A stretch of 64,000 bases of DNA from Nitrososphaerota archaeon (lineage in GTDB: Archaea > Thermoproteota > Nitrososphaeria > Nitrososphaerales > Gagatemarchaeaceae), in contig JAFMAD010000007.1 in NCBI GenBank assembly GCA_029785195.1, positions 1 to 64,000 on the forward strand. Direction: 5' to 3'. Shown in pieces: positions 36,736 to 50,022 of this stretch (positions are counted from its first letter, which is position 1; every line of letters starts with the position of its first letter). Below the pieces are notes generated by a model that was given only the letters and a program-made list of their open reading frames with translations, did not search any database and was not told where the DNA came from. A program made the position numbers and the translations under genes.

Positions 36736-36834
36736 ATGGGGGTGGAATCCTATTCAGGAGCGCCATCCGCAACTGAAGACGAACAATTGAAGCGACCTGT
36801 TAGGAAGAAATTCAAGGAGTTTCGTTGGGTGTAA
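36736..36834 (+). CDS. Possible 32-aa basic peptide gene
   Basis: ATG 36736 lies 26 nt after a CGCATAAG box, the normal leaderless distance. It encodes MGVESYSGAPSATEDEQ followed by a basic stretch (KRPVRKKFKEFRWV). The stop lies within the palindromic operator at 36829-36844. Evidence is spacing only. Confidence 0.3.
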   Translation: MGVESYSGAPSATEDEQLKRPVRKKFKEFRWV

Positions 36835-36844
36835 CTGTAGTTAC
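36829..36844. promoter_or_regulatory. Palindromic operator, copy 1 (UspA promoter)
   Basis: TGTAACTGTAGTTACT (one mismatch to TGTAACnnnnGTTACA) directly before the TATA-like TTTAATA of the UspA gene. Same palindrome as at 44641 and 46029. Confidence 0.65.
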
Positions 36845-36896
36845 TTTAATACGACCCCTTGTTGGCACCTGCACAATTCCACAAGAGAAGAGAGCC

Positions 36897-37313
36897 TTGG
36901 TCAGCAAATTCTTGGTCGGATACGATGGGTCAGCACAGGCCGAGCGTGCGCTTGATTTCGTCGTTGGCATCGCCTCACAGAACGAAGGCTCCGAGATTCA
37001 CATTGCGTATGTGGTCCAGAAACCAGCGGGAGCCCCCGATCCCATCCCCGACGAATTGCTGGAATCGTTAAGGAAATCAGGGAAAGAAACGCTTGTGAAC
37101 GCTGAGCGAGTGGTCAAGAAGAACCTGATTGACGCTATAATCTATCTTGAAATGGGGAATCCTGGGGAGAAGCTCATGGAACTCGCCAGCAGGTTGAACC
37201 CAGATCTGGTAGTGCTCGGGACCCTCCGGCACTCCGCGTCAGAGAGGCTTTTGGGGACCGTGTCTTCGCATTTCCTGAAGTCCCGGGCCTACCCGGTCCT
37301 TATTGTTCCCTGA
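36897..37313 (+). CDS. Universal stress protein (UspA family)
   Basis: 138 residues from TTG 36897. Family features: FLVGYDGSAQAERALDFVV at the start (ATP-site Asp), IHIAYVV strand, and the C-terminal VVLGTLRHSASERLLGTVSSHFLKSRAYPVLIVP, where the usual G-x2-G-x9-GS is partly altered. It likely binds ATP or senses stress. The promoter carries the palindromic operator shared with the complex-I-like operon and the ribbon-helix-helix operon, placing it in one regulon. The start is uncertain; the open frame begins upstream at 36825. Confidence 0.8.
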   Translation: MVSKFLVGYDGSAQAERALDFVVGIASQNEGSEIHIAYVVQKPAGAPDPIPDELLESLRKSGKETLVNAERVVKKNLIDAIIYLEMGNPGEKLMELASRLNPDLVVLGTLRHSASERLLGTVSSHFLKSRAYPVLIVP

Positions 37314-37319
37314 TTCGGG

Positions 37320-39386
37320 TCAGCCAACAGCGAGTAGGATGTAGATGAGTACGAAGACAAAGGCAGCCATGATGTAAATCAAATAGAGACCGAGCTTTCC
37401 TGGCATTACCTTCTTGCTAGTGTAAGCCGACAACCACAATGCCCACCTGGCGAGGACGTCGTAGAACTTCTTGAAGACATCTAAGACTTCGAGGTCCACG
37501 ACGTACTCTTCTGGCGACCTGATGATTGGGCGCTGAACTCCGCCAACCTGGACCACAGTCTCTTTGGTCCTGAAAAGGAACCTAAGCATTATGCGGATGG
37601 GGGTACTGTAGCCGAAGGAGTTGTAGAGTCCCGTCCCATCGCTGGACTGAGCTGACCCTGCGAACCAACCTTCTGTGCGCCGAACCTTCGGCCCCAAGCC
37701 AAGGGGCCTGATCCTCACGCCCCCGGCGACAAGCAGAACCCCCAGCAGAACGAGAACGAACGCCACGGCCGTGAACGTCGGGGAGAAGCCTCCGAACGGG
37801 CTTCCTGACAGTATCACGAAGGGTGAAGGCACCCCCAGTAGGCCGGTGACGAACATACCGAACGGGTTTGTCCCCAGGGTCCGGGACACAGCATTTGAGG
37901 CGAGTAGGAACACCCCTGGAGCTGCGACACCTGTCGCGATGATTAACGCAGCGAAGTACACAAGGCTGCCCATAATCGAGAGACCCCCGTTGGTGCCATG
38001 TTTCCCACTAGCGGTCGCCAACTTCCGTGGCCACAGTATCCCGAACCCGTAGGCTTTCGTCATTGTAACAACGATTATCCCTGCTGCCAGCGCGACCACC
38101 GCGCCCACCAGGGTCCCGACAATCTGGCTCGTCAGGTCCCCGAACCTGAAGGATTGGAAAAGCGTCTCTAGGATCATCCATTCTGAGACGAACCCCGCAA
38201 GCGGAGGCACGGCGGCCAAGGACAAGGCCGTGAATATGCTTGTGAAACCAAGAGATGGCCTCTCGTCAGGTGGCAATGGATTACTGCTGCCCAGGTCGAA
38301 GCTTCCCCTCAGCTTGCTGACCCACCCGTTGGTGAGGAAAAGCGATGCCTTGGCAATAGAGTGGGCGAAGGCATGGAAAAGGGCGGCAACAAGGGCGAAG
38401 TCCGCGAGCAAGGTCAGGTTGTAGTAGGAGGCGACCATGTACGACCCTATGGCTACGACGATCATCCCGTTGTTTTCTATCGTGCTGTAGGCGGGCAAAC
38501 CTTTCGAGTGTTCCGAGACCGAGCTGAAGAGCGCTCCAAGGAGGGCTGAGACCCCGCCGATGGTCAGGGCCAGCCACCCCCACCAGAGCTCGTACTGTCC
38601 GAGCTGGGACACGACGTCGATGATGCCGTAGACCCCCATCAATGTGAGCGTCGCGGATAGGAGCGCAGAGGCGTTCGACGGGGCGCTAGAGTGGGCGATA
38701 GGGAGCCACTCGCTCATATGGAAGGGAGCCAATCCCATCTTCAGGCCGAATCCGACAAGCGCAGTGACGAAGATCCAAGAGCCCAGTGGTGAGATGATTC
38801 TCGCTACGTCGGGTCCCATGAAGTTGAAGGTGCCTGCTGCTGAGAAGAGTCCGGAGAATGCAAGCATGATGAACACGCTGCTCCCTTCCCCGAAGGCGAG
38901 GAAGAGGTAGGCAGCATTTCTCACACCTTCCCTGTCGCCTTTCCCCTGCAGTATCATGAAGAAGGAGGCGATTGTCATCGACTCCCAACCTATCAGAAAC
39001 GTGATGGCGTCGCCGCTTACCAGCACGAAGACCATCGACAGGATGGTGAGTAGCAGGAGAGACGAGAGCGACTTGGGGTAGTCGTCATCGTACTTTACCG
39101 AGTACAAGCATGTCCCGAGCCAGACAAGTGAGGAGATCAGGAGGAAGTACGAGTTGAATGGGGAGATCTGCAGTTGGGCGAAGCTCGATGATGTGACCTT
39201 CCAAAGGTCGATGGAAGTCGTCCCTCCAGAGATTAGGATGGTGAGCGAGAGTATTGTGCTCAACGCAGAGCCCACAACCCCCAGGAGATATGCCGCCCTC
39301 TTCGAAATCAGCCCGAGGAAGAAACCCGCACCGAAGGTCACCAAAGTCCCAAAGAGGAGTCCTGCCACTACGCCAACCGCGGTCAT
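37320..39386 (-). CDS. hyfB: HyfB/NuoL-type membrane subunit
   Basis: 688 residues, about 16 membrane helices, of the antiporter-like proton_antipo_M family: FLIGWESMTIASFFMILQG, GFGLKMGLAPFHMSEWLPIAHSSAPSNASALLSATL and a lysine/histidine-bearing LFHAFAHSIAKASLFLTNG, all typical of HyfB/MrpA/NuoL. It pumps or channels ions in energy-converting complexes. ATG 39386 overlaps the stop of the ferredoxin/NuoB fusion gene (ATGA). Last gene of the six-gene operon. The far C-terminus is an extra helix (LYLIYIMAAFVFVLIYILLAV). Confidence 0.85.
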   Translation of the reverse strand: MTAVGVVAGLLFGTLVTFGAGFFLGLISKRAAYLLGVVGSALSTILSLTILISGGTTSIDLWKVTSSSFAQLQISPFNSYFLLISSLVWLGTCLYSVKYDDDYPKSLSSLLLLTILSMVFVLVSGDAITFLIGWESMTIASFFMILQGKGDREGVRNAAYLFLAFGEGSSVFIMLAFSGLFSAAGTFNFMGPDVARIISPLGSWIFVTALVGFGLKMGLAPFHMSEWLPIAHSSAPSNASALLSATLTLMGVYGIIDVVSQLGQYELWWGWLALTIGGVSALLGALFSSVSEHSKGLPAYSTIENNGMIVVAIGSYMVASYYNLTLLADFALVAALFHAFAHSIAKASLFLTNGWVSKLRGSFDLGSSNPLPPDERPSLGFTSIFTALSLAAVPPLAGFVSEWMILETLFQSFRFGDLTSQIVGTLVGAVVALAAGIIVVTMTKAYGFGILWPRKLATASGKHGTNGGLSIMGSLVYFAALIIATGVAAPGVFLLASNAVSRTLGTNPFGMFVTGLLGVPSPFVILSGSPFGGFSPTFTAVAFVLVLLGVLLVAGGVRIRPLGLGPKVRRTEGWFAGSAQSSDGTGLYNSFGYSTPIRIMLRFLFRTKETVVQVGGVQRPIIRSPEEYVVDLEVLDVFKKFYDVLARWALWLSAYTSKKVMPGKLGLYLIYIMAAFVFVLIYILLAVG

Positions 39387-40114
39387 GGCGGCGCCTCCTT
39401 CCTCAGCCTCCCAGCGGCCAGAAGCAACCCCTCCAGGATCTGAACAGGAGAAGGTGGGCATCCAGGGACGGTGACATCAACCGGAATTACCTCCCTCACT
39501 GATGAGACAAACCCTTCAGTCCCTCTGAAGATGCCGCCGCTGATGGCACAGGCTCCTACCGAAATGACTAGCTTTGGTTCTGGCATGCTTTCGTACGTCC
39601 TCTTGAGGACATCCACCATCGCTGGATTGAGGGCTCCGACCACCAGCAGGGCGTCGGCATGCTTGGGGGAGTTTGTCAGCGAAATTCCGAGCCTCGTAAG
39701 GTCGTAGTATGGATTGGAAAGGTTCAGCACCTCTAAATTGCAGGCGTTGCACGACCCGACGTCTATCGTTAGGGCTTGGAGCGACCTTCCGAAAATCTGC
39801 TTCGCACTCTTCACATTTTGCAGGGCGACACTTGCCTGGAGGGCTCGGGTCTTGTCGATGTTTCCATCTTCGAATGAGAACCCTGCCGATGAGCAAAGGC
39901 GGCAGTAGATGCACATTCCAAGGTCTATCTTCCTCTCTTGCGAGTTGATTGCGCTCGTTGGACAGCCCTTCTCGCCCCCCGGCCAATCTGCATGTTGAGT
40001 GGCCATGGGTGGCTGAGAGCTTTGAGGAATCTCTTCACTTGTGGGGGGTGTCCTAGGATATCTCGTAGTGAGGACACCTTTCTTCAACCCGCGGAGGACC
40101 CAAATCTTTGGCAT
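39383..40114 (-). CDS. Fusion of ferredoxin-like domain with NuoB/HyfI small subunit
   Basis: 243 residues. The N-terminal third has a reduced HyfH-like region (GCPTSAINSQERKID, GMCIYCRLC), giving Cys residues for one Fe-S cluster. The rest is NuoB/HyfI: VGSCNACNLEVL, SPKHADALLVVGALN, ISVGACAISGG and PGCPPSPVQIL, with all four ligands of the proximal 4Fe-4S cluster. In related operons these are two genes (HyfH and HyfI). Electrons would pass from here to the large subunit, which lacks the NiFe ligands. Starts 9 nt after the large subunit. Confidence 0.8.
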   Translation of the reverse strand: MPKIWVLRGLKKGVLTTRYPRTPPTSEEIPQSSQPPMATQHADWPGGEKGCPTSAINSQERKIDLGMCIYCRLCSSAGFSFEDGNIDKTRALQASVALQNVKSAKQIFGRSLQALTIDVGSCNACNLEVLNLSNPYYDLTRLGISLTNSPKHADALLVVGALNPAMVDVLKRTYESMPEPKLVISVGACAISGGIFRGTEGFVSSVREVIPVDVTVPGCPPSPVQILEGLLLAAGRLRKEAPP

Positions 40115-40123
40115 CTTCGACTC

Positions 40124-41485
40124 TCACCTGTCTGAATCGGCGAATGAAAGGCCGAAGCTTTCGTAAGCGAACTGGAAGTCCGTGAAGACGTTCCCTTGGA
40201 GGCTCTTGGCGAACGGGAGCCAATTCACCAGGGAAGGAGGGCGGATGTGCAGATTGCTTATCCTGCCTCGGTTGTCAACCTGAACCACCTGTATCAAGTC
40301 GCCGCTGGGACTTTCAATCCTGCAGAAGGCGAAATCCTCCGGAAGTCTATCCTGGGAGGACCGTTTAGGACTAGTCCGTGGCCCTGGTCCGTCACCCGGC
40401 ATCCTGTCGAGGAGTTCCCTCAAAGCTATGGTGCTGGATTCGATTTCCTTCACCCTCACCATAGTCCTAGCCATGGTGTCCTCACCCGACTCGGTCTCCA
40501 GGTTGACGTAGATGTCCCTGTACGGCTCGATGGGGTAGGTCAGTCTGTCGTCCCACTGCAGGCCCGACCCGCGAGCTGCGGGGCCGACGGAACCGAGTAC
40601 GATTGCGTCGCCTCTCGAAAGCTTCGCCGTGCCCTGAAGCCTGTCGAGGAAGATCCTCGAGGAAAGGAAGTACTCAACAAGCTTAGAGAACTCTCCTGCA
40701 ACCGTCCTGATTTCACTGACGAGCTGAGTGCGCTCTTCCTTGGCCAGGTCATAGCGCACACCCCCGAGAGTGTTGATTCCGAAAAGATACCTGTGGCCGA
40801 AATACTTGGAATTCGACCGCAGAATCCTCTCTCTTAGGGCGTGCGTCTGTGTCGCGGCCACGTTCTGTGATGCTGCTTCGGCGAGACGACCAAACACATA
40901 CAAGTGATTGTAGATGCGTTCGAGCTCAATGGCCGCTGCCCTAGTCCACCTGGCTTTCGACGGAACCTCGAGGCCCAGGGCACCTTCTACGGCGGTCACG
41001 AAGCAGGTGGAGTACGAAGCCGAGAAGTTGCCTGCCGACCTCTCAATAAGAAGCAATGCGTCCTGGGGTAGCTTGCCTAGCGCCGCCTGTTCGACTCCCC
41101 TCTTCTTGAAATTGATTTGTGGGACAACCTTGAGGACCCGTTCTCCGTAAGTCACCAGTTTGAATCCTCCCGCTTCGGGCACACCTGAACTCACGGGCCC
41201 ATATTGGAACTCGAATACGCCGTACCCCTCTACTTTGCCTCCGGCTTCCAACTCGAGTGGAATCCCCAACTTCGTTTCACTCCCTCTAAGGAGGGCGCCG
41301 AATTCCTCCCCAAGCGTCGGCGGCAGGTCGCTGAGGATGGTCTTGTTGTTCTCTATATCAGAGAGGAGCGCATGCGTCCGATTGCCGGCACGGAAAATCG
41401 ACGAAATCTGCATGTTCTCTCGAAGGCTTTCCACGTTCCGTCGCTCGATACGGGCGGCATCCAGTTCTGACGACGTTCCACTCAT
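40124..41485 (-). CDS. HyfG/NuoD-like large subunit lacking NiFe-binding cysteines
   Basis: 453 residues from ATG 41485, which overlaps the HyfF stop (ATGA). It follows the HyfG/HycE plan: an N-terminal NuoC-like segment, then ERSAGNFSASYS (about 148-159) where hydrogenases have E-R-I-C-G-I-C, then the helical core (RAAAIELERIYNHLYVFGRLAEA), VGPAARGSGLQWD and a C-terminus FAYESFGLSFADSDR where DPCxxC should stand. Neither cysteine pair is present, so no NiFe site can form. It therefore belongs with NuoD/Ehr-type subunits of unknown substrate. Confidence 0.85.
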   Translation of the reverse strand: MSGTSSELDAARIERRNVESLRENMQISSIFRAGNRTHALLSDIENNKTILSDLPPTLGEEFGALLRGSETKLGIPLELEAGGKVEGYGVFEFQYGPVSSGVPEAGGFKLVTYGERVLKVVPQINFKKRGVEQAALGKLPQDALLLIERSAGNFSASYSTCFVTAVEGALGLEVPSKARWTRAAAIELERIYNHLYVFGRLAEAASQNVAATQTHALRERILRSNSKYFGHRYLFGINTLGGVRYDLAKEERTQLVSEIRTVAGEFSKLVEYFLSSRIFLDRLQGTAKLSRGDAIVLGSVGPAARGSGLQWDDRLTYPIEPYRDIYVNLETESGEDTMARTMVRVKEIESSTIALRELLDRMPGDGPGPRTSPKRSSQDRLPEDFAFCRIESPSGDLIQVVQVDNRGRISNLHIRPPSLVNWLPFAKSLQGNVFTDFQFAYESFGLSFADSDR

Positions 41486-42921
41486 GGGACGATCCCCTGA
41501 GCCGCTTGAAGAAGCAACGGGCTCATGTAGACACCAATGCCGAGGGCGACCAAGAGGTTGGCGAGCGGGATGGCTACCGACAACCAATTCTCGCGTGCAG
41601 AGTTTGTTCCTTGTTTCGCTGCTTTATCCTCGAGTGTGCCCCCTCCCGTTGGGCTGACACCGAATACCATTCGTACCGATTGCCTGTTGAGTCCGATGAA
41701 AGTGTAGGTGTAGACAGCCGCCAGGAGGAGGACCAGAGCGAAGTTCCCTGTGCTCATGGCCTGTGCGATTATCATGAATTCGCCCACGAACACCCCGAAC
41801 GGCGGAGCCCCCGTCACCGCGAGACAGGAAAGCGCGAAGAGGTAGCCGCTATACTTCAGCCTCGAGGCCACTCCCTGGACCTCGGCCATGCTCTTGCTTT
41901 CATAGGAGACCAAGATGTTACCGGCCCCGTAGAAGGCCGAAGACTTGGCGAAGGCGTGGGCGACAATCTGTATGACCGCCCCGATTGCCCCGATGCCGCC
42001 TAGGGCGAAACCAACCAAGATAATGCCCATGTTCTCCATGCTGGAGTACGCGAGCATTCGCTTGTAGTTCCGCTGATAGCCGATTATGATAGCTGCGAGC
42101 AGGGCGGTGAAGATTCCGAATCCTATTAGCAAGTTCTGCATCGCGGCGAAGGAGGCAAGACCCTGGAGGAGGTTGAAGGTCCTCACCAAGGCGTAGATCG
42201 AAGTGGGGAGGAGGATGCCTGAGAACATGGCGCTGACAGGGGAAGGCGCTTCGCTGTGCGCGTCGGGAAGCCAGGCGTGCATGGGGGCGATTCCTGCTTT
42301 AGTGCCGTAACCCACCAGTGCGAAGCCGACCGCCAGAGGCATGAGCAATCCGGCCTGTAACGGCCCGGCCGTGAGGTCTGAGATCAGGAGAGTCCCTTGC
42401 GAGAAGTAGACGAAGATTACCGAGAGCAGGGAGGATACGAGTCCCGCGGAGACTATCAGTGTGTAGCGCCACGCCGCTTCGACGCTGGTCCTTTCCCGCT
42501 CGAGCGCCACCAAGAGTGCGCTCGTAACCGTCGTTGCCTCGATTGCGATCCAGACAAAGCCGAGGTCGTTGACCGTGACCGCGAGCAGCATGGTGAACGC
42601 AAAGAGGTCGAGCAGGGAGTAGTACCACCTGAAGCGGATGAGGGGCTCGTTGATCCTCTTCACGTAGAACCATGAATACGCCACCGAGGTGAAGAAGATG
42701 GACGAAATGGTGATTGTAATTATTCTTGTCAGTCCGTCGGAATAGAAGAAGCCGAATGCTCCCGAAGCCCCAGAGGCGAGCAAGAGCAAGGAGACCAGAA
42801 CAGCAGCGGCGGAGGACACGAGAGATGCGAGAATCTCGACCCCGTCCCTAGGGACAAGCGAAATCGCTGCCCCGACTGCAGGTGCCGCGAGCAACCCTAC
42901 GAACAGGATAGACTGGTCCAT
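41482..42921 (-). CDS. hyfF: HyfF-type antiporter-like membrane subunit
   Basis: 479 residues with about 14 membrane helices. Characteristic sequence: DLGFVWIAIEATTVTSALLVALE, GYGTKAGIAPMHAWLPDAHSEAPSPVSAMFSG, YQRNYKRMLAYSSMENMGII and VAHAFAKSSAFYGAG, as in HyfF/NuoN-type subunits. Lysines and a glutamate within helices would carry ions. Second of three antiporter-type or NuoK-type membrane subunits. Starts 7 nt after HyfE; its end overlaps the large subunit gene. Confidence 0.85.
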   Translation of the reverse strand: MDQSILFVGLLAAPAVGAAISLVPRDGVEILASLVSSAAAVLVSLLLLASGASGAFGFFYSDGLTRIITITISSIFFTSVAYSWFYVKRINEPLIRFRWYYSLLDLFAFTMLLAVTVNDLGFVWIAIEATTVTSALLVALERERTSVEAAWRYTLIVSAGLVSSLLSVIFVYFSQGTLLISDLTAGPLQAGLLMPLAVGFALVGYGTKAGIAPMHAWLPDAHSEAPSPVSAMFSGILLPTSIYALVRTFNLLQGLASFAAMQNLLIGFGIFTALLAAIIIGYQRNYKRMLAYSSMENMGIILVGFALGGIGAIGAVIQIVAHAFAKSSAFYGAGNILVSYESKSMAEVQGVASRLKYSGYLFALSCLAVTGAPPFGVFVGEFMIIAQAMSTGNFALVLLLAAVYTYTFIGLNRQSVRMVFGVSPTGGGTLEDKAAKQGTNSARENWLSVAIPLANLLVALGIGVYMSPLLLQAAQGIVP

Positions 42922-42928
42922 TCCCTTA

Positions 42929-43588
42929 TCACCCTGTGAGTTGCTCTAGTTCGGGCTCTTCGAGCGTCCGTAGAACATCCCTTGTAGCGGACAGGATCAC
43001 GCCGACCAGGACAACACCCAGGATATCTAGGACTACGGCGAACTCGATCAGAAGGGGTATGGTCGGCGCGATGAGCGCGCCCGCATAGAGGACAGCGTTC
43101 TCTTCCTCTAGGAATCCCGTCATCTGCGTGAGCGCGTTCCTCCTGGTCACTATGAGGAGAAAGCTGAGGAGCACGAGGACAAAGGGAACCGATGCAGAAG
43201 GGTTTGATAGGGTAGGAAGCAGCGCGGTCTTGAAGAGAGCGTATCCTCCGATTGTCATCAGCACGCCTACAATGACCAATGAGGGCACCCTCTGGCCTGT
43301 CCCGCTCTCCCTCAGGCTGTGCTTGAAGCGTCGGACCTGGTAGAGCATCACGACGGGGATCAGGATTCCTCTGATCCCGGCGGTTATCGCCGCGAGATAC
43401 AGGAGGTCGGCCACTCCCGACTCCAGATAGAGGACTACGAAGAAGCCCGCAAGAAGCAGCGATTGAACGGCCACTGCCCGTATTGTCGGGTCGACAAAGG
43501 TCTGGCTCTGGAGATAGAGAGCTGACAGGATCACCAGTATCCCCAGCAACCCCGCAACCTCGCCTAGGAGCGATGCAGGAATGGTCAT
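42929..43588 (-). CDS. hyfE: HyfE-type (NuoK-like) membrane subunit
   Basis: 219 residues with six or seven membrane helices (LLGEVAGLLGILVILSALYL, VQSLLLAGFFVVLYLESG, LVIVGVLMTIGGYALF, PFVLVLLSFLLIV, TIPLLIEFAVVLDILGVVLVGVIL). HyfE proteins are NuoK extended at the N-terminus, and a Glu in AVLYAGALIAPTIPLLIEFAVV fits. ATG 43588 overlaps the HyfC stop. A charged tail (RTLEEPELEQL) ends it. Confidence 0.75.
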   Translation of the reverse strand: MTIPASLLGEVAGLLGILVILSALYLQSQTFVDPTIRAVAVQSLLLAGFFVVLYLESGVADLLYLAAITAGIRGILIPVVMLYQVRRFKHSLRESGTGQRVPSLVIVGVLMTIGGYALFKTALLPTLSNPSASVPFVLVLLSFLLIVTRRNALTQMTGFLEEENAVLYAGALIAPTIPLLIEFAVVLDILGVVLVGVILSATRDVLRTLEEPELEQLTG

Positions 43589-44556
43589 GGAACTGGCCCG
43601 CCTCCCACCAGAAAAAACGCTATGACCGCGAGAAGCCCGAGGCTGAACGAGATGGCGAGAAAGTCGAGGATCTTGAAGAGGCGCAACTTGGCGAAGGTCT
43701 CTTCAGTTATCACTATCACCGCTGCCAGTCCTAATAGCTTGAGGAACAGGGTGCCGACCGAGTACAGGGCACCTGTGACGGAGACCTGGCTTGACATCCA
43801 CCAGGGAAGCAAGAAGACGTTCAGGAAGACCGACATGAGCATGAACTGCTTCATGTAGCCGCCCCATCTCGAAAGCGCAAGGAGCTTCCCGGAGTGTTCC
43901 ATCACCTTGGCGTCGTCTAGCATTCCGAGCTCCATCAAGCCCGAGCTCTCGACCGGGAGCCGACCTGTTTCGACGAGCAGTAGCATGAAGAACGCACCAA
44001 GCACAAGTATGTGGGTCGCCGAAAGGTACCAAGCGGTCGAGGTCGCCAGGAGGTTGTTGGTTACGTATGGGTTGTTGGTCCCAGTGATCAGGGCGACTCC
44101 GAAGAAGACCATTATCAAAGTGGGCTCAGCCAAGGCGGAAAATGAGGCGCTCCTGCTTGCCCCAAGGGCTGTGTAATTGGTATGGGCGTCGATAGCGGCG
44201 ATGATTCCCACGATTCCAGCGAGGCCGAACATCAGCGCCCCTCCCAGCAGGTCGAGAAGTATGCCGTACGGGAGGGGATAAGGAGTCACAATAGGGATGA
44301 CCAGAGAGATGACGATGTAAGCAGTAAAGGATAGGAAGGGGGCTAGAACGAAGAAGCTGGACGCCCTCTCGGGCACGACCACCTCCTTCCTGAAGAGTTT
44401 CAGGAGGTCATAGTAGGGCTGAAGCAGCGGCGGGCCGTGTTTGGATTCTATTATCGCCTTCAGCCTGTTTATGATTCCAGCTACCAGAGGCGAGAGGAAG
44501 AGAACCGTGCCAACTTGGATGACGTTTATGATCTGAAGTGTGAGCTGGTCTGTCAA
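43585..44556 (-). CDS. hyfC: HyfC/NuoH-type membrane subunit
   Basis: 323 residues, eight membrane helices. The NuoH hallmarks are present: GIINRLKAIIESKHGPPLLQPYYDLLKLFRKE near the N-terminus and LLVETGRLPVESSGLMELGM in the middle, with E and D residues lining the quinone-side cavity in NuoH. It links the soluble electron module to the ion-pumping subunits. First gene of the operon C-E-F-G-(H/I)-B. TTG 44556 leaves a leader of about 55 nt from the TATA box at 44634-44640, which the palindromic operator abuts. Confidence 0.85.
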   Translation of the reverse strand: MTDQLTLQIINVIQVGTVLFLSPLVAGIINRLKAIIESKHGPPLLQPYYDLLKLFRKEVVVPERASSFFVLAPFLSFTAYIVISLVIPIVTPYPLPYGILLDLLGGALMFGLAGIVGIIAAIDAHTNYTALGASRSASFSALAEPTLIMVFFGVALITGTNNPYVTNNLLATSTAWYLSATHILVLGAFFMLLLVETGRLPVESSGLMELGMLDDAKVMEHSGKLLALSRWGGYMKQFMLMSVFLNVFLLPWWMSSQVSVTGALYSVGTLFLKLLGLAAVIVITEETFAKLRLFKILDFLAISFSLGLLAVIAFFLVGGGPVP

Positions 44557-44685
44557 AGTGCTATCATTCCAATAGAGGGTGTTCGAATCTTATGCCTGAT
44601 GCACGGGACTTGCGGTGCCTCTCGGGCGTCCGTAATTAAATGTAACTGTTGTTACATTCCCAAGATGGACGGACCGGCGAGTGGA
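44557..44685 (-). promoter_or_regulatory. Leader and promoter of the complex-I-like operon
   Basis: TATA TTTAATTA at 44634-44641 gives a start near 44612 and a leader of about 55 nt. Only a very short frame (GTG CAT CAG GCA TAA) lies in it. Confidence 0.4.
44641..44656. promoter_or_regulatory. Palindromic operator, copy 2 (complex-I-like operon)
   Basis: TGTAACTGTTGTTACA, perfect six-base arms, immediately upstream of the TATA box of the hyfC-like gene. Confidence 0.75.
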
Positions 44686-45231
44686 TTACTTGTTGATTCC
44701 GAGGGGCTGTGCTTTCTCCGCGAAGCTAGCCAGTGCCTTCTTGCATCTTGACAGAATCTTATCGACCTTGGAAGCGTCCTCACCACGTCCATACCCCTTC
44801 TCTTTCACGTCCTTGTACCACCTTTCGAGTGCTTCGAGGCTTTGTTCGAGTTCATCTGTCTCTTCGTAGGTGGTTTTCTTGTTTGTGAGGTTCTCGCTTA
44901 TCTCATCCAGGAATTCCTGGCATTCTTCGTAGATCTCGTCGTACTGCTTCCGCCTATCCTCTTGGAACAGCTTTGAGAGTATGGCTTCGTCCGGCATTTC
45001 AAGTGCATTGGCAGCCATTATCAGAATCGTTCCATGCTTCTTGAATTCGGATCTGAACTGTCCAATCTCCTTCCTGACCCGAGGTGTGTCAGGCAGGATG
45101 CAGAGAGAAACGGGTGGATAGAGTGCACCAAGCTTCTTGAGGTTCCTCCACGCCCTCACCCTCAACTTCGAGGGTTCGTTCGGAAGGTCGTAGGCAACTA
45201 CAATCCACCTGTCAGCCGACGACCCGCTCAT
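44686..45231 (-). CDS. ChrB-N-like protein
   Basis: 181 residues from ATG 45231, about 29 nt from ATTTAA at 45258-45263. The N-terminal WIVVAYDLPNEPSKLRVRAWRNLKKLGALY and SVLCILP-like strands match the ChrB N-terminal domain, a small alpha/beta module found in stress-response proteins. The remainder is a long acidic/basic helix pair (EEETDELEQSLEALERWY) likely forming a coiled coil. Its stop is 130 nt before the complex-I-like operon. Function unknown; a regulator of metal or redox response is possible. Confidence 0.6.
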   Translation of the reverse strand: MSGSSADRWIVVAYDLPNEPSKLRVRAWRNLKKLGALYPPVSLCILPDTPRVRKEIGQFRSEFKKHGTILIMAANALEMPDEAILSKLFQEDRRKQYDEIYEECQEFLDEISENLTNKKTTYEETDELEQSLEALERWYKDVKEKGYGRGEDASKVDKILSRCKKALASFAEKAQPLGINK

Positions 45232-45286
45232 GAGATGAATCCGAGACCAGCTTGTCGATTTAAGCCTACCATGTGCCGCTGGCCTG

Positions 45287-45985
45287 TTACCTGCCGCCAG
45301 TGCGGAGACCGTTCGCAAGTTGCTCGAAGATGGATCTCTCATCGCCTATGAGGTGTCTCAGCTCCGACACCACGAGTTCAACATCATAGTCCGCCCTTTC
45401 AAGTTGAACTTCCCTTGCGGATGTGTCAAGGACAGCGTAAGACGCCCTAGGGTCTCCATCCTTCGGCATTCCTACGCTCCCTGGGTTAACAATCCATCGA
45501 GCCCCATCCTTGATTTCGTACGGCACGTGCGTGTGCCCCAGCAAGAGCAGATTCACCCCTTCGACTTCAAGACCGGCAGCCTCCTCCTTCGTGATGTACC
45601 TGTAGAGCTCGTCCCCGGGGGCTGCGTGCAGAGCCCTGACCCTCAAGTCTCCGTATGCAAGGTCGAGGGTCTTCTCCGCTCGTCCAAGCATCTGCAAGGC
45701 CCTCCTCGGCGTCCTCTGATAGGTAATCCTTTCCCTGGTTCTTACGGCCGCCTCATGCGTCCTCGGACTGCTCCTGCAGTCCAGACCGAAAGCGGCAGCT
45801 ACGTCGTGATTGCCCACCACTCGCTTCGCCCTCATCCTCTTCAGCCTAGAGTAGACCTCAAACGGCGATGGTCCGTAGTCTACGGCATCGCCCAAGAAAA
45901 TCACGTCGTCGTATCTGGCCCTCTCAAGGACAGCATCTAACGCAGAAAGGTTGGAGTGAATGTCTGAAATGAGAAGGACCTTCAA
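45287..45985 (-). CDS. Metallophosphoesterase (YfcE/MJ0936-like)
   Basis: 232 residues. The calcineurin-like metal motifs are complete: LLISDIHSNLSALDAV (D-x-H), IFLGDAVDYG (GD), VVGNHDVAAA (GNHD), ALHAAPGD and LLLGHTHVPY (GHTH), then WIVNPGSVGMPKDGDPRASY. Such enzymes hydrolyse cyclic phosphodiesters or phosphomonoesters. ATG 45985. Divergent from the ribbon-helix-helix operon, with the palindromic operator at 46029-46044 between them, so it may share that control. Confidence 0.85.
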   Translation of the reverse strand: MKVLLISDIHSNLSALDAVLERARYDDVIFLGDAVDYGPSPFEVYSRLKRMRAKRVVGNHDVAAAFGLDCRSSPRTHEAAVRTRERITYQRTPRRALQMLGRAEKTLDLAYGDLRVRALHAAPGDELYRYITKEEAAGLEVEGVNLLLLGHTHVPYEIKDGARWIVNPGSVGMPKDGDPRASYAVLDTSAREVQLERADYDVELVVSELRHLIGDERSIFEQLANGLRTGGR

Positions 45986-46028
45986 TTTGTCCGGGACCGC
46001 CCCGAAAGCGGCAATTATATATTCCCTA

Positions 46029-46044
46029 TGTAACCACCGTTACA
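46029..46044. promoter_or_regulatory. Palindromic operator, copy 3 (ribbon-helix-helix operon)
   Basis: TGTAACCACCGTTACA lies just downstream of the TATA stretch TTATATAT (46014-46021) and over the expected transcription start, the classical repressor position, in contrast with copies 1 and 2. Confidence 0.75.
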
Positions 46045-46054
46045 GTCGACAGAC

Positions 46055-46372
46055 TTGATTCGAAAGGGAAAGAGGAAAGCGTCAGCCGAAATCGTGGAGT
46101 TTTCGGTCGGCAGTGAGGACTACAAGCGCTTCGAGCAGTTCGCCGTCGCCCACCGCCTCACTCAGGACGACGCACTGCGAGCCGTCCTGATTGACGGAAT
46201 CAATCGATACTGGCCACTACAGCTTGCCTACATGGAGAAAGACTACCCCGAACTGGAGAAGAGGTTCAAAGAATACGGTAGAGACAATGAGGTCCTCAGG
46301 AAGATCTATTCTCAGAACCACGAGCTTGGGAAGCTCTTGGAAGCCGAGAAAAAAGAAGGGAGGGGTAAGTGA
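46055..46372 (+). CDS. Ribbon-helix-helix-like DNA-binding protein
   Basis: 105 residues from TTG 46055. After a basic start (RKGKRKAS) the segment AEIVEFSVGSEDYKRFEQFAVAHRL, then TQDDALRAVLIDGINRYW, has the beta strand plus two helices of a ribbon-helix-helix fold (about residues 10-55). A coiled tail follows. Its promoter carries palindrome copy 3 at a repressor position, so autoregulation, and control of the complex-I-like and UspA genes, is a reasonable inference. First gene of a five- or six-gene plus-strand run. Confidence 0.6.
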   Translation: MIRKGKRKASAEIVEFSVGSEDYKRFEQFAVAHRLTQDDALRAVLIDGINRYWPLQLAYMEKDYPELEKRFKEYGRDNEVLRKIYSQNHELGKLLEAEKKEGRGK

Positions 46373-46861
46373 ATGTTCAATGTGTTCAGTTCCGCCAAGG
46401 GGAAGCAGCACCCTGCAGAGGTCGATACGCACTCCATCATTGAGGTAGGCAACTCAGAGGAGTCGGTCAAGATAACCGCCAGATTCGAGGGAAAGACCTG
46501 GAAGGAGATATCGAGTTTCGCCCGGCAGATGGGATACACCGCGATGAAAGAGTTGCTCCCGATACTCTTCTCCTATGGAGTCACGGATGAGGAAGGCGTC
46601 GACATCGAGAAGCGCCGTTCGGAGATGTTCGCGCTAGGAGGGAGATACGCGGCCATGAAGTTCGAGTCATACCAACTCTTCTCGGACAACAGGGCCTTGT
46701 CCATGGCCCTTTCAACAATGCTACCCGAGAACAAGAAGCTCAGAAAGCTGCTGGCCGAGAAGGGCCTCACCCCGGCAAAGCATGAACAGTGGGATGACTG
46801 GGCGCAGGACGAGATTGACAGTTTCTACAAGAAGTACGTCTTCATCCTCAAGGAAACCTAG
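46373..46861 (+). CDS. Second ribbon-helix-helix-like protein
   Basis: 162 residues. The part ESVKITARFEGKTWKEISSFARQMGYTAMKELLPILFSYGV (about residues 30-70) repeats the strand-helix-helix pattern of the gene before it, so the pair may be paralogues or form a heteromer. A long helical tail follows. A Shine-Dalgarno-like GGAGGGG stands about 8 nt before ATG 46373. Starts right after the preceding stop. Confidence 0.55.
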   Translation: MFNVFSSAKGKQHPAEVDTHSIIEVGNSEESVKITARFEGKTWKEISSFARQMGYTAMKELLPILFSYGVTDEEGVDIEKRRSEMFALGGRYAAMKFESYQLFSDNRALSMALSTMLPENKKLRKLLAEKGLTPAKHEQWDDWAQDEIDSFYKKYVFILKET

Positions 46862-47701
46862 ATGAGTTTGGTTTCGACTTCCCTGGCCGCGAATCTCTGG
46901 GAGCTAGTTTCAAACGCAAAGCACTCGGTGAAGATCGGTATCTCGAGTGAGAGTCAGCTGGATCAGGTCGCGTCCGTTCTCATGAAGGCTTCGAAACCGC
47001 ACGCAAACGTAGAACTCCATGCCAGGTCGTTCGGTCTGAATCCCAGGCGTGTCGATATGTGGGAGAAGCTACTTGCGAATGGGGTTCAGGCAACTTGGGA
47101 CCCGGACCTGGACCTTAGCGCCGTTTCAATAGACCAAACATGCTACCATCTCGATGGAGGGGAGCTCACGCGCGTCGAAGCAAAGAATCTCAGGTTCGGA
47201 AAAGTAGGATTTCTCGGAGTTCTCAAGGGGAGACTTGAAAGCGGCCAGAGACTCGCGGGCAAAGGTGGCTTTTCGTTTCTCTTGGTCGTCGAACGGGACG
47301 GAAAACGCTACCCATTGTTTGCGGGAAAGGACATCACCACATTGGACTTGAGGACCGGCGACACTCTTAGGGTAGCCTATCTGTCCATAGCCGGTGACAG
47401 CACCTACAGCGGAAGGACTGCACCAACAGAGGTATTCCTAGAGGCGCTGTCGGTAGAGGTGTCAAAGCAGCATCCCGACAAGCAGTCTGTGCTTTGGCTG
47501 ACGACCAGAGATGAAATCGAAAGGCTCCTTGAGGACTTTCCGGTCCCTTCTTTCACGACCAGGAAGAAGGAGGCGTGGGTGGAAACGGCGAGAGCCCGGA
47601 TAGCCCTTAGTCTGAAGAAACGAATGTTCTACGTAGACGGTGACGACGAGCGGTATCTCTATGCTAGGATTCGAGGAAAGGTATTGTCTGGTTCCCCATG
47701 A
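46862..47701 (+). CDS. Hypothetical protein with possible OB-like region, 279 aa
   Basis: Not recognised. The N-terminal 100 residues are helix/strand (LWELVSNAKHSVKIGISSESQ), somewhat PLD/receiver-like. The middle GKGGFSFLLVVERDGKRYPLFAG with a TGDTLRVAYLSI strand looks like an OB or S1-type beta barrel. Its stop overlaps the Nudix gene start. Same operon as the ribbon-helix-helix genes. Confidence 0.6.
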   Translation: MSLVSTSLAANLWELVSNAKHSVKIGISSESQLDQVASVLMKASKPHANVELHARSFGLNPRRVDMWEKLLANGVQATWDPDLDLSAVSIDQTCYHLDGGELTRVEAKNLRFGKVGFLGVLKGRLESGQRLAGKGGFSFLLVVERDGKRYPLFAGKDITTLDLRTGDTLRVAYLSIAGDSTYSGRTAPTEVFLEALSVEVSKQHPDKQSVLWLTTRDEIERLLEDFPVPSFTTRKKEAWVETARARIALSLKKRMFYVDGDDERYLYARIRGKVLSGSP

Positions 47702-48144
47702 TGAGAGTCGAGCAGCTCGACGAAAGCATTCGTGTCATCGCGTCGGTAGCTATCGGAAAGGACCGGAAAATCCTGCTCATCAACGAGCGGGAGGAGCCCT
47801 ACCACGGCAGATGGGTACTACCACAGGGATACGTCAAGACCGGCGAACAAGTTCCTGACGCCGCACGAAGGGAGGTTAAAGAGGAGCTTCGCGTGGAAGT
47901 CGAACTCCAGGGATTAGTGGGCGTCTACGACGATTTCATCTCAGAAGATACGGGGAATACCCACTACCTCTTCGTCTGCTATAGCGGGAAACTGGTGGGA
48001 GCGGTAAACCCTCGCCCGACACCAGAGGCTGTGGATATGGTGTGGGTTGACCCGGCCCGAGGCTCATTTGACAGCCCAGACGTCGCAAGACGGATGCTGA
48101 CGGATGCGTCGAAACTAGGGAGGAGGCGGTTCAGGTATCGTTGA
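47698..48144 (+). CDS. Nudix hydrolase
   Basis: 148 residues with the Nudix box GYVKTGEQVPDAARREVKEE (about 45-64): G-x5-E-x7-REVKEEL, intact Glu ligands, the usual G after EE replaced by R. It would hydrolyse a nucleoside diphosphate linked to another moiety; the substrate is unknown. ATG 47698 overlaps the preceding stop by four bases. Confidence 0.85.
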   Translation: MMRVEQLDESIRVIASVAIGKDRKILLINEREEPYHGRWVLPQGYVKTGEQVPDAARREVKEELRVEVELQGLVGVYDDFISEDTGNTHYLFVCYSGKLVGAVNPRPTPEAVDMVWVDPARGSFDSPDVARRMLTDASKLGRRRFRYR

Positions 48145-48806
48145 CAGAAACATCGGTGAAGGCTAGGCCCGACGACTCTGACGGAAGTGCCGGGGATTCT
48201 GAACTTGAAAGAACCTTTCGAAATCGAGCGAATCAGATTTTCGGCTCGAAGCGAAGGTCACTCGAGACAGCCAACGAGGAGGCACTGGAGTTGTGGCTAG
48301 CCTGGCGTGGCGACCCTGCCTATCTCATCGCAGAAGTTGGGAAAAGGCCAGATAGAGAACTTGCGTGGCGCGTGGCGAAATTCACGCAAATCTCAGACCT
48401 TGCTGCGAAGTACGACGATGTCAGTGCTAGGAGCATTGGCGGGTCCTTTCCAGACCATATCCTGGCTTTCTTTGTGCGCTTCCTTTCCGCGGAGTTGAGT
48501 CGTTCTCGCGGTGCCGAACTCACGTCAGAAAGTTCAGTTAATCCGTCTTCAGAGGTTCAACCTGAGAGTATCAGGTCTGACGAGGTCTTTGGTAGACTGA
48601 AGAAAGGCGCGACGGTTACGGCAAGGTGGCCTAGCACGACGGCCCCTTCACTCTCTCGCAAGGTGATTGTTCTCTCAACCGACCGGATTATGTGCTCAGA
48701 GTACCCGGCGCTAGATGTCGAGCGCCGAAAAAACGTCGGGCTCATGAGGTTTCTTGAGAGGTCAGAGAAGAAAAACCGAGCGAGGTGGGTTTCGTCCCGT
48801 GGGTGA
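48141..48806 (+). CDS. Hypothetical protein, 221 aa
   Basis: Not recognised. Acidic, Ser-rich start, a helical central part (ALELWLAWRGDPAYLIAEVGKR), a low-complexity Ser/Glu linker, then a basic C-terminus with a strand pattern (ATVTARWPSTTAP, KVIVLSTDRIM). TTG 48141 overlaps the Nudix stop. Operon member of the cargo island. Confidence 0.55.
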   Translation: MTETSVKARPDDSDGSAGDSELERTFRNRANQIFGSKRRSLETANEEALELWLAWRGDPAYLIAEVGKRPDRELAWRVAKFTQISDLAAKYDDVSARSIGGSFPDHILAFFVRFLSAELSRSRGAELTSESSVNPSSEVQPESIRSDEVFGRLKKGATVTARWPSTTAPSLSRKVIVLSTDRIMCSEYPALDVERRKNVGLMRFLERSEKKNRARWVSSRG

Positions 48807-50022
48807 GGGCTCAGCTCGGGAAACGACGAATCCCCACAAGACTCCCTGGCTCAACAGAACTATCGCGGGAGTCAGCCTGACCAGTCTCTTCTCAGACATG
48901 AGCCATGAGACTGCCACGGCCATGCTCCCCCTCCTCGTGGCGACCCTGGTGGGCGGCCCGATTGCGGCGGCGGCGCCCATAGGGCTGATTGAAGGCGCCT
49001 CGGACGGCGCGTCTAGCGCAATCAAGTCGTACTCTGGCTATTGGACCGACAAGACGGGAAAGAGGACATTTGTAATGTACCTCGGTTACGCCCTTACCGG
49101 GTTTCTCTTCCCAGCCATTGGGTTCGCCACGTCGTGGCTCCAGATTCTCTCCCTGCGGGTAGCCGGATGGATGGGTCGCGGGGCTCGCGGCCCTCCAAGA
49201 GATGCCCTGATGTCCGAGTCAGTAGCCCCCGAAACCCGGGGCAAGGCTTTCGGCTTTCAGCGCGCCTTCGATACCATCGGAGCGACTATCGGGATCGCAT
49301 TGGCATACCTGCTCGTCCCCCGTCTCGCAATCCCACCGATCTATTTCCTCACATTGATTCCGGGGATAGCTTCAGTCGTTGTAGTGGTCGCCCTGGTCAG
49401 GAGCAAGGCCCGGGTCCCCCATCCGAATCATCCGAGTTTCTTGCATGCCGTAAGGGTGCTCCCAACAAGGTTCAGGCTGTTCCTTGTAGGCGTGGGTCTC
49501 TTCGGGTTGGTAAATTTCTCGAACACCATATTCAATCTCCGGGCTCTTCAGATTCTCGCGCCTTCACAAGGACAGACAGGCGCCGCGGACGTCGCCGTCC
49601 TGCTCCTCCTTGTCCTCAACGTCGTATATGCAGCCAGCTCGTATCCCGCCGGCTTCTTGGCAGATAGGGTATCCAAGAGATTTCTCCTCGCTGGCGGATA
49701 TGGCTTATTCGGGCTGGCCTGCCTGGCATCTGTCTTTGAGATTCCTTCGATTCCAATACTTCTCACCGTATTCATACTCGCCGGGTTGAGCACCGGTGTT
49801 GTAGATGCAGTCGAGGGCGCCTACACGGCAGACTTCCTGGACTCGTCGCAGAGGGGTGTGGGTTATGGTGTGCTTCAAACTGTCAATGGCGTAGGGGACT
49901 TCGTCTCAAGCGCTCTGATTGGAGTGCTGATTACTCTTGTGTCCCCAGCATCAGGATTTGCTCTTTTCGCCGGGTTGTCGTTCGCGGCTGGGGCTTTGCT
50001 AGTCACTCTTACAGGAAAGTGA
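48799..50022 (+). CDS. MFS transporter
   Basis: About 407 residues with 11-12 membrane helices. The family's conserved loop is visible: GYWTDKTGKRTFVMYLGYALTG (G-x3-D-x2-G-R/K-R) after helix 2 and RGARGPPRDALMSE after helix 4; the later half has AGFLADRVSKRFLLAGGYG. The first helices carry HETATAMLPLLVATLVGG. GTG 48799 is preferred; TTG 48754 is possible. Substrate unknown; such MFS proteins with RGARGPPRDAL belong to a drug/metal-efflux-like group. Last gene of the cargo run. Confidence 0.8.
   Translation: MGEGSARETTNPHKTPWLNRTIAGVSLTSLFSDMSHETATAMLPLLVATLVGGPIAAAAPIGLIEGASDGASSAIKSYSGYWTDKTGKRTFVMYLGYALTGFLFPAIGFATSWLQILSLRVAGWMGRGARGPPRDALMSESVAPETRGKAFGFQRAFDTIGATIGIALAYLLVPRLAIPPIYFLTLIPGIASVVVVVALVRSKARVPHPNHPSFLHAVRVLPTRFRLFLVGVGLFGLVNFSNTIFNLRALQILAPSQGQTGAADVAVLLLLVLNVVYAASSYPAGFLADRVSKRFLLAGGYGLFGLACLASVFEIPSIPILLTVFILAGLSTGVVDAVEGAYTADFLDSSQRGVGYGVLQTVNGVGDFVSSALIGVLITLVSPASGFALFAGLSFAAGALLVTLTGK

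Follow-up and report, generated by a model that had tools for sequence, protein, structure and literature searches.

We analyzed a 64,000-nucleotide stretch of DNA (the window; positions 1 to 64,000 of contig JAFMAD010000007.1, Nitrososphaerota archaeon assembly GCA_029785195.1), with a focus on a 16-bp palindrome, TGTAAC-N4-GTTACA, and on the protein that may bind it. The palindrome occurs at the promoters of a gene cassette comprising a pair of small ribbon-helix-helix-like (RHH) genes, RHH1 and RHH2, a phosphoesterase gene, a gene for a ChrB_N-like protein, a six-gene complex-I-like operon and the gene for a universal stress protein (Usp; Table 1). A pattern search of the window recovered TGTAACTGTAGTTACT in front of the Usp gene, with one mismatch, and two exact copies, TGTAACTGTTGTTACA at the complex-I-like operon and TGTAACCACCGTTACA at the RHH operon. 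An earlier note, made from the letters of this DNA, had taken these three copies as the mark of a cargo regulon; all three are real and above chance, but the first had been placed one nucleotide off (36829–36844 instead of 36830–36845). With up to two mismatches allowed, the window contains 5 matches where 0.62 are expected, a count reached in 0 of 100 dinucleotide shuffles.

The genome is metagenome-assembled (1.6 Mb, 78% complete), and its complete scan returned 9 exact and 6 one-mismatch palindromes, compared with a single match, and 0 exact copies, for a reversed control pattern; these counts rule out a chance origin. All nine exact copies lie at cassette promoters, on contigs C33, C68 (the window contig) and C69, and not in large numbers inside genes, the pattern that the earlier note had named as refuting its proposal. 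A regulon with a shared operator of one transcription factor is supported. The one-mismatch copies on C8, C10 and C19 look like chance occurrences. C33, C68 and C69 carry three paralogous copies of the cassette within this one assembled genome, about 76–77% identical in DNA and with RHH pairs of two divergent types; the phosphoesterase is missing in C33.

Alignment of 54 site-gene pairs from 19 genomes revealed a recurrent promoter register, with an A/T run (the TATA box) starting 1–2 nt after the palindrome in 37 pairs. In the ten distinct RHH1 promoters, the order is TATA, 4–6 nt, palindrome; at the RHH operon of the window the palindrome lies 5 nt downstream of TTATATATT and over the expected start site. 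This agrees with the placement described earlier, against the upstream edge of the TATA box at the Usp gene and the complex-I-like operon, and at the RHH operon covering the start.

ChrB-type and RHH proteins as candidate binders

The RHH-like protein at 46055 or 46373 had been proposed as the regulator and autorepressor, and the ChrB-like protein encoded at 44686–45231, a far better candidate, had not been considered. The latter is a member of the ChrB_N family (PF20229, 105 bits against a cut-off of 23, E = 4e-30) and shares 26–32% identity with annotated bacterial ChrB over >90% of its length (tblastn). It has the ChrB_N domain, the W-R and P motifs and an operator near its own promoter in common with ChrB of Ochrobactrum tritici TnOtChr (PMC3817168) and of Cupriavidus pMOL28, but differs from these chromate-type proteins in consisting of the N-terminal domain only (181 aa), without ChrB_C, and in the absence of chrA from the genes of the module. 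O. tritici ChrB is a DNA-binding repressor, mostly a dimer, for which Arg18 and Arg23 of the N-terminal half are needed (PMC3817168). The W-R segment is kept, with R29 present in 35 of 35 aligned sequences and R24 being R or K; the mapping of R24/R29 to R18/R23 of O. tritici rests on the 5-residue spacing and the position after W. Tyr38, Cys44, Cys104, Glu110, Glu124, Trp138 and Cys163 are common to archaeal and bacterial standalone ChrB and lacking or replaced in the chromate type, and are candidate sensing residues.

We scanned 101 relatives with RHH2 and ChrB profiles, the carriers being metagenome-assembled genomes that, where named, are labelled Nitrososphaerales or Nitrososphaerota. The RHH2 profile matched in 13 relatives and the ChrB profile in 15, 14 of them strongly, and all 14 strong-ChrB genomes have the palindrome on the chrB-bearing contig (Fisher p = 1.6e-8 for co-occurrence; 1.4e-7 within the genus). 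Exact palindromes in several relatives without chrB (G048, G074, G046, G095) were treated as background.

The motif is correlated with RHH2 as well (p = 3e-6), the RHH1-RHH2 pair adjoins the site in nearly all cassettes of the genus, and the placement of the site over the RHH1 start suggests autoregulation. An RHH fold is plausible: the RHH1 model (predicted local distance difference test score, pLDDT, 84) has two helices and no strand as a monomer, and most of its top PDB neighbors are RHH proteins (best MatP, ParD, CopG and AmrZ), a result that speaks for the fold named in the earlier note but reaches E values of only about 0.5, with no Pfam match. Binding of the palindrome by one or both RHH proteins, with ChrB merely another target, would accommodate these points, but is very unlikely given how the two genes are distributed. 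Three of the 14 genomes with ChrB and palindrome (G043, G053, G069) have no detectable RHH pair, and the palindrome likewise occurs without RHH in bacteria and at the ChrB loci of other families and classes. Conversely, G023 encodes two RHH pairs but no ChrB, no energy-converting hydrogenase-related (Ehr, here the complex-I-like) operon of the cassette type and no palindrome, and the RHH operon of G006 also lacks the palindrome, with a fluoride riboswitch in its place. Moreover, RHH1 has diverged to just 22–32% identity between cassette types that use the identical 16-mer; the ChrB-like proteins are 59–97% identical among genus members.

As an out-of-sample test, ChrB alone served as bait for 400 genomes from the class and 398 from the phylum, and the DNA around new matches was inspected; this gave 14 intact chrB loci in other families, orders and classes. 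An exact palindrome lies within 1.5 kb at 12 of these loci, and a copy with no more than one mismatch at all 14, compared with a total expectation of 0.0038 exact copies; RHH1/RHH2 matches at the 14 loci numbered zero, and the Ehr operon is present at just one. Gene and site decay together, in that the chrB of G113 contains stops and its nearby site has decayed to two mismatches, and the truncated chrB of G442 has no site. A homologue in G312 (26% identical) is also without a site. In bacteria, the 220 bp upstream of 17 plasmid-borne chrB genes contain a palindrome with no more than two mismatches in 12 cases (3 exact, 8 with one mismatch), mostly 18–67 bp before the chrB start codon and often ending 14–15 bp before it.

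The 16-bp TGT-N10-ACA geometry resembles CRP/NtcA-type sites, as would suit a CRP/FNR-like or other unlinked regulator; such a protein is extremely improbable, as each of its gains and losses would need to coincide exactly with those of chrB over several classes and two domains, with the site always beside chrB. Taken together, the co-occurrence, the ChrB-bait loci and the copies upstream of bacterial chrB make it very probable that standalone ChrB_N proteins of both Archaea and Bacteria use the palindrome as their operator, and the comparative evidence for its ownership by ChrB-type proteins is strong.

Probable fluoride connection and predicted mode of control

Targets of the fluoride (crcB) riboswitch include mutS, formate hydrogen lyase and ion transport genes (PMC2864571), and enolase, phosphatases, exporters and Na/H antiporters are further targets (PMC11139923). 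The palindrome gene set matches this target set, comprising the Ehr/formate-hydrogenlyase-like operon, the MutS pair, Usp, enolase, phosphatase and NUDIX genes, with crcB elsewhere; in G305, crcB-DUF190 adjoins chrB and an exact palindrome with a TATA box stands in front of crcB. A search with the riboswitch model RF01734 gave no match in the window or at the C33 and C69 loci. Among 38 genomes, it located the RNA element directly before both RHH1-RHH2 operons of G023 and before the RHH operon of G006, the sole cassette RHH operon without a palindrome, so that two genomes of the genus have the riboswitch at the place taken elsewhere by the palindrome. Of the two G023 operons, one is an orthologue of the window operon (major facilitator superfamily (MFS) transporter 81%, p221 72%, RHH2 59% identical), and crcB, divergent from it, is driven by an additional riboswitch. 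Both stems are retained in the RHH-operon riboswitches, as is a 7-bp complementary pseudoknot (AGAAGCT/AGCTTCT); in other relatives, the element is mostly found before crcB-DUF190. Bacterial orthologues of the Ehr operon (HyfC 38–42% identical), the MutS pair (about 41–51%) and Usp are under 40–57-bit riboswitches, the strong bacterial elements being located on plasmids of Burkholderia cenocepacia, Caballeronia and Mycobacterium branderi. Standalone chrB lies no more than 8 kb from crcB in 5 of 8 bacterial plasmids, once with ClC, crcB, MFS and the Ehr operon together.

The same operons thus have the palindrome in some genomes and the RNA switch in others, and no other argument for equating the palindrome regulon with the fluoride regulon is as strong. 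Judging from gene content and riboswitch swaps, the two probably correspond, with the difference that control here would be exerted by a DNA palindrome and a predicted protein. In G103, a 42-bit riboswitch (L162:16022–16097) lies inside a ChrB-palindrome module, before two small genes, one of them RHH-like in sequence, and both switches are present in one cluster.

We put the probability at about 0.8 that this is a protein-controlled fluoride regulon, in which a ChrB_N repressor acts on TGTAAC-N4-GTTACA and is released by fluoride; DNA binding, ligand and repression are inferred from the comparisons above. The single-domain protein encoded at 44686–45231 on the reverse strand would bind the palindrome as a dimer. 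At most targets the dimer would sit directly upstream of the TATA box, over the transcription factor B recognition element (BRE), and block transcription factor B (TFB) and TATA-binding protein (TBP); at the RHH operon it would occupy the stretch that separates the TATA box from the start site. Release of ChrB by fluoride, or by a complex of fluoride with a metal, would switch on the fluoride-resistance genes. In the window, these are the Ehr proton pump, Usp, the phosphoesterase, the RHH pair, the NUDIX protein, the MFS transporter and also chrB; C69 adds the MutS pair, the dynamin-like GTPase and the MoxR operon, and other genomes add crcB. The ligand could also be a consequence of fluoride stress instead of fluoride itself.

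SurR and TrmBL1 are archaeal regulators with upstream activator sites that work from dual positions. As with these proteins, whose family is unrelated to ChrB, a single palindrome here takes either of two positions relative to TATA/BRE, which presumably differ in their effects. The fixed palindrome-TATA spacing, 0–1 nt in 37 of 54 sites, is reminiscent of their upstream sites and would also suit a ChrB that activates, aiding TFB/TBP at weak promoters, and represses the RHH operon. We regard such activation as unlikely: repressors, too, classically occupy sites that cover the BRE, and the site at the RHH operon can only block. Repression is the most economical model, favored because bacterial ChrB is a repressor (PMC3817168) and many bacterial sites lie at the chrB start.

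ChrB may alternatively respond to a different signal: low pH, a metal (as chromate or otherwise) or general stress of the envelope or ion balance. Chromate is the signal of the founding ChrB (PMC3817168), the Usp, NhaA, MFS, metal transporter and phosphatase genes fit acid or metal stress, hydrogen fluoride stress overlaps acid stress, some bacterial chrB neighborhoods are without crcB, and R. opacus has palindrome-like sites at chrB-chrA. A non-fluoride signal is nevertheless quite unlikely, as in other genomes fluoride riboswitches control these operons and the residues common to standalone ChrB differ from those of the chromate type; chromate in particular was rejected, with no chrA chromate pump seen in the archaeal modules.

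Several observations weigh against control of a fluoride regulon by ChrB. On the protein side, ChrB_N has no recognizable helix-turn-helix, Foldseek returned no significant neighbor for ChrB (weak Cas2-like and PaaX matches were not used), and a mutated inverted repeat of O. tritici was still bound in vitro (PMC3817168). The three RHH-operon riboswitches score 24–28 bits, under the Rfam cut-off of 34. Five of the 17 bacterial chrB genes have no close match in the 220 bp upstream, including two of the two-domain chromate type and a Burkholderia gene that has an exact copy 247 bp upstream. In bacterial plasmid islands, the palindrome is found only at the chrB promoter region, not at crcB or the Ehr operon; the broad regulon is therefore seen only in archaea, and the bacterial unit may be smaller. 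The near-palindromes at the Rhodococcus opacus chrB beside chrA indicate that the operator also occurs outside fluoride loci. Finally, chrB and crcB occur together in the genus only in G015, whose chrB is frameshifted, a pattern suggestive of mutual exclusion; the anticorrelation of chrB and CrcB is not significant (p = 0.31).

According to a 2024 review (PMC11139923), riboswitches control only about 15% of Fluc and 30% of CLC-F fluoride exporters, and other, unknown mechanisms exist; a search of an open-access subset of the literature found nothing that links ChrB to fluoride regulation. Our analysis names a candidate protein, operator and regulon for such non-riboswitch control. We give somewhat better than even odds to the broader proposition that standalone ChrB_N proteins are widespread fluoride sensors with one operator, TGTAAC-N4-GTTACA, in Archaea and Bacteria, a protein counterpart of the fluoride riboswitch with Cys44/104/163 and Glu110/124/127 as a metal-fluoride site. 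The candidate protein, operator and regulon would also provide a function for many genes annotated 'chromate resistance protein ChrB', show RNA and protein switches standing in for one another at shared operons, and tie a complex-I-like Ehr pump and a MutS-like pair to archaeal fluoride stress.

The operators of known ChrB proteins differ from the palindrome studied here. Plasmid pMOL28 (L200) carries a perfect palindrome, TGTAGAGATCTCTACA, at 1414–1429, 54 bp before its two-domain chrB, which is possibly a chromate-type operator, and O. tritici has GTAGAT...ATCTAC; the predicted regulon also differs in consisting of fluoride genes. A standalone ChrB gene lies next to mcr-5.2, in its transposon, on plasmid pEC2380 (L194), where the upstream region has no close palindrome.

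Cassette content and coordinates

The operon of HyfB-, HyfI-, HyfG-, HyfF-, HyfE- and HyfC-like subunits resembles Ehr complexes in its six Hyf/Nuo-like subunits and in a large subunit without NiFe cysteines. HyfG has only two Cys and no CxxC, so that the complex is of Ehr type and its identity as a NiFe hydrogenase or formate hydrogenlyase, which would need CxxC nickel ligands, is ruled out. It differs from known Ehr complexes in its predicted regulatory tie to fluoride resistance. For Usp, the likely start by homology is TTG 36897; the mechanical reading frame start at 36825 would run over the operator. The reverse strand of TTATATATT is likely the TATA box of the divergent phosphoesterase-chrB operon.

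Table 1. Coordinates of cassette genes and predicted promoter elements in the window.
Feature	Position	Strand	Basis
Palindrome copy 1, TGTAACTGTAGTTACT, predicted Usp operator	36830..36845	+	Pattern search; ttaatac TATA-like box directly after
TATA-like box of Usp	36846..36852	+	Sequence and promoter register
Universal stress protein (Usp)	36897..37313	+	PF00582, E 5e-19
HyfB-like proton-conducting subunit, last gene of Ehr-like operon	37320..39386	-	PF00361; hydrogenase-4 subunit B family match below cut-off
HyfI/NuoB-like subunit	39383..40114	-	PF01058
HyfG/NuoCD-like large subunit	40124..41485	-	PF00346
HyfF-like proton-conducting subunit	41482..42921	-	PF00361
HyfE-like subunit	42929..43588	-	Operon position; conserved across modules
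HyfC/NuoH-like subunit, first gene of operon	43585..44556	-	PF00146
TATA box TTTAATTA of Ehr-like operon	44633..44640	-	Sequence and promoter register
Palindrome copy 2, TGTAACTGTTGTTACA, predicted Ehr-like operon operator; abuts TATA, covers BRE position	44641..44656	.	Pattern search; register
ChrB_N-only protein, 181 aa, proposed palindrome-binding repressor	44686..45231	-	PF20229, E 4e-30
YfcE-like metallophosphoesterase, same operon as chrB	45287..45985	-	PF12850
TATA box TTATATATT of RHH operon, 5 nt upstream of palindrome	46015..46023	+	Sequence and register
Palindrome copy 3, TGTAACCACCGTTACA, predicted operator common to RHH and divergent phosphoesterase-chrB operons	46029..46044	.	Pattern search; register
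RHH1, ribbon-helix-helix-like, predicted regulon member	46055..46372	+	Model pLDDT 84; RHH structural neighbors
RHH2, second RHH-like protein, predicted regulon member	46373..46861	+	Profile search of relatives
Conserved protein P279 of RHH operon	46862..47701	+	No family match
NUDIX hydrolase	47698..48144	+	PF00293, E 5e-18
Conserved protein p221; relatives recur beside palindromes in other modules	48141..48806	+	Module comparison
MFS transporter	48754..50022	+	Module comparison

The C69 cassette contains additional genes with promoter-region palindromes, encoding a dynamin-like GTPase, a DUF4129-DUF58-MoxR operon, a MutS-like pair, a second phosphoesterase and a protein with an Lrp/AsnC ligand domain, and an enolase gene also lies within it. 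About 15 kb of C69 (L016:16355–20000 and L017:1–11515) match contig C4 of G015 and several G029 contigs, from other species of the genus, at 99–100% DNA identity, which reflects either recent transfer of the module or cross-binning. A viral origin was rejected, with no relative of RHH2 in viral contigs.

The G043 module encodes a TFB paralogue (L072:9114–10091) with an exact palindrome in its promoter (9044–9059), which hints at a dedicated initiation factor for the regulon. At L184–L187 and L163, which belong to other classes and orders, the palindrome separates chrB from conserved genes without an annotated function, such as orf320 (L186), orf344 (L187) and those for CPxC-type proteins, and these may be new regulon members. 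MFS transporters recur in many archaeal modules; that of the window has a counterpart in the riboswitch-controlled G023 operon and shares 41% identity with one from a bacterial ChrB-CrcB-ClC island. As crcB is undetectable in 10 of the 11 chrB genomes of the genus, the window MFS transporter is a candidate fluoride exporter.

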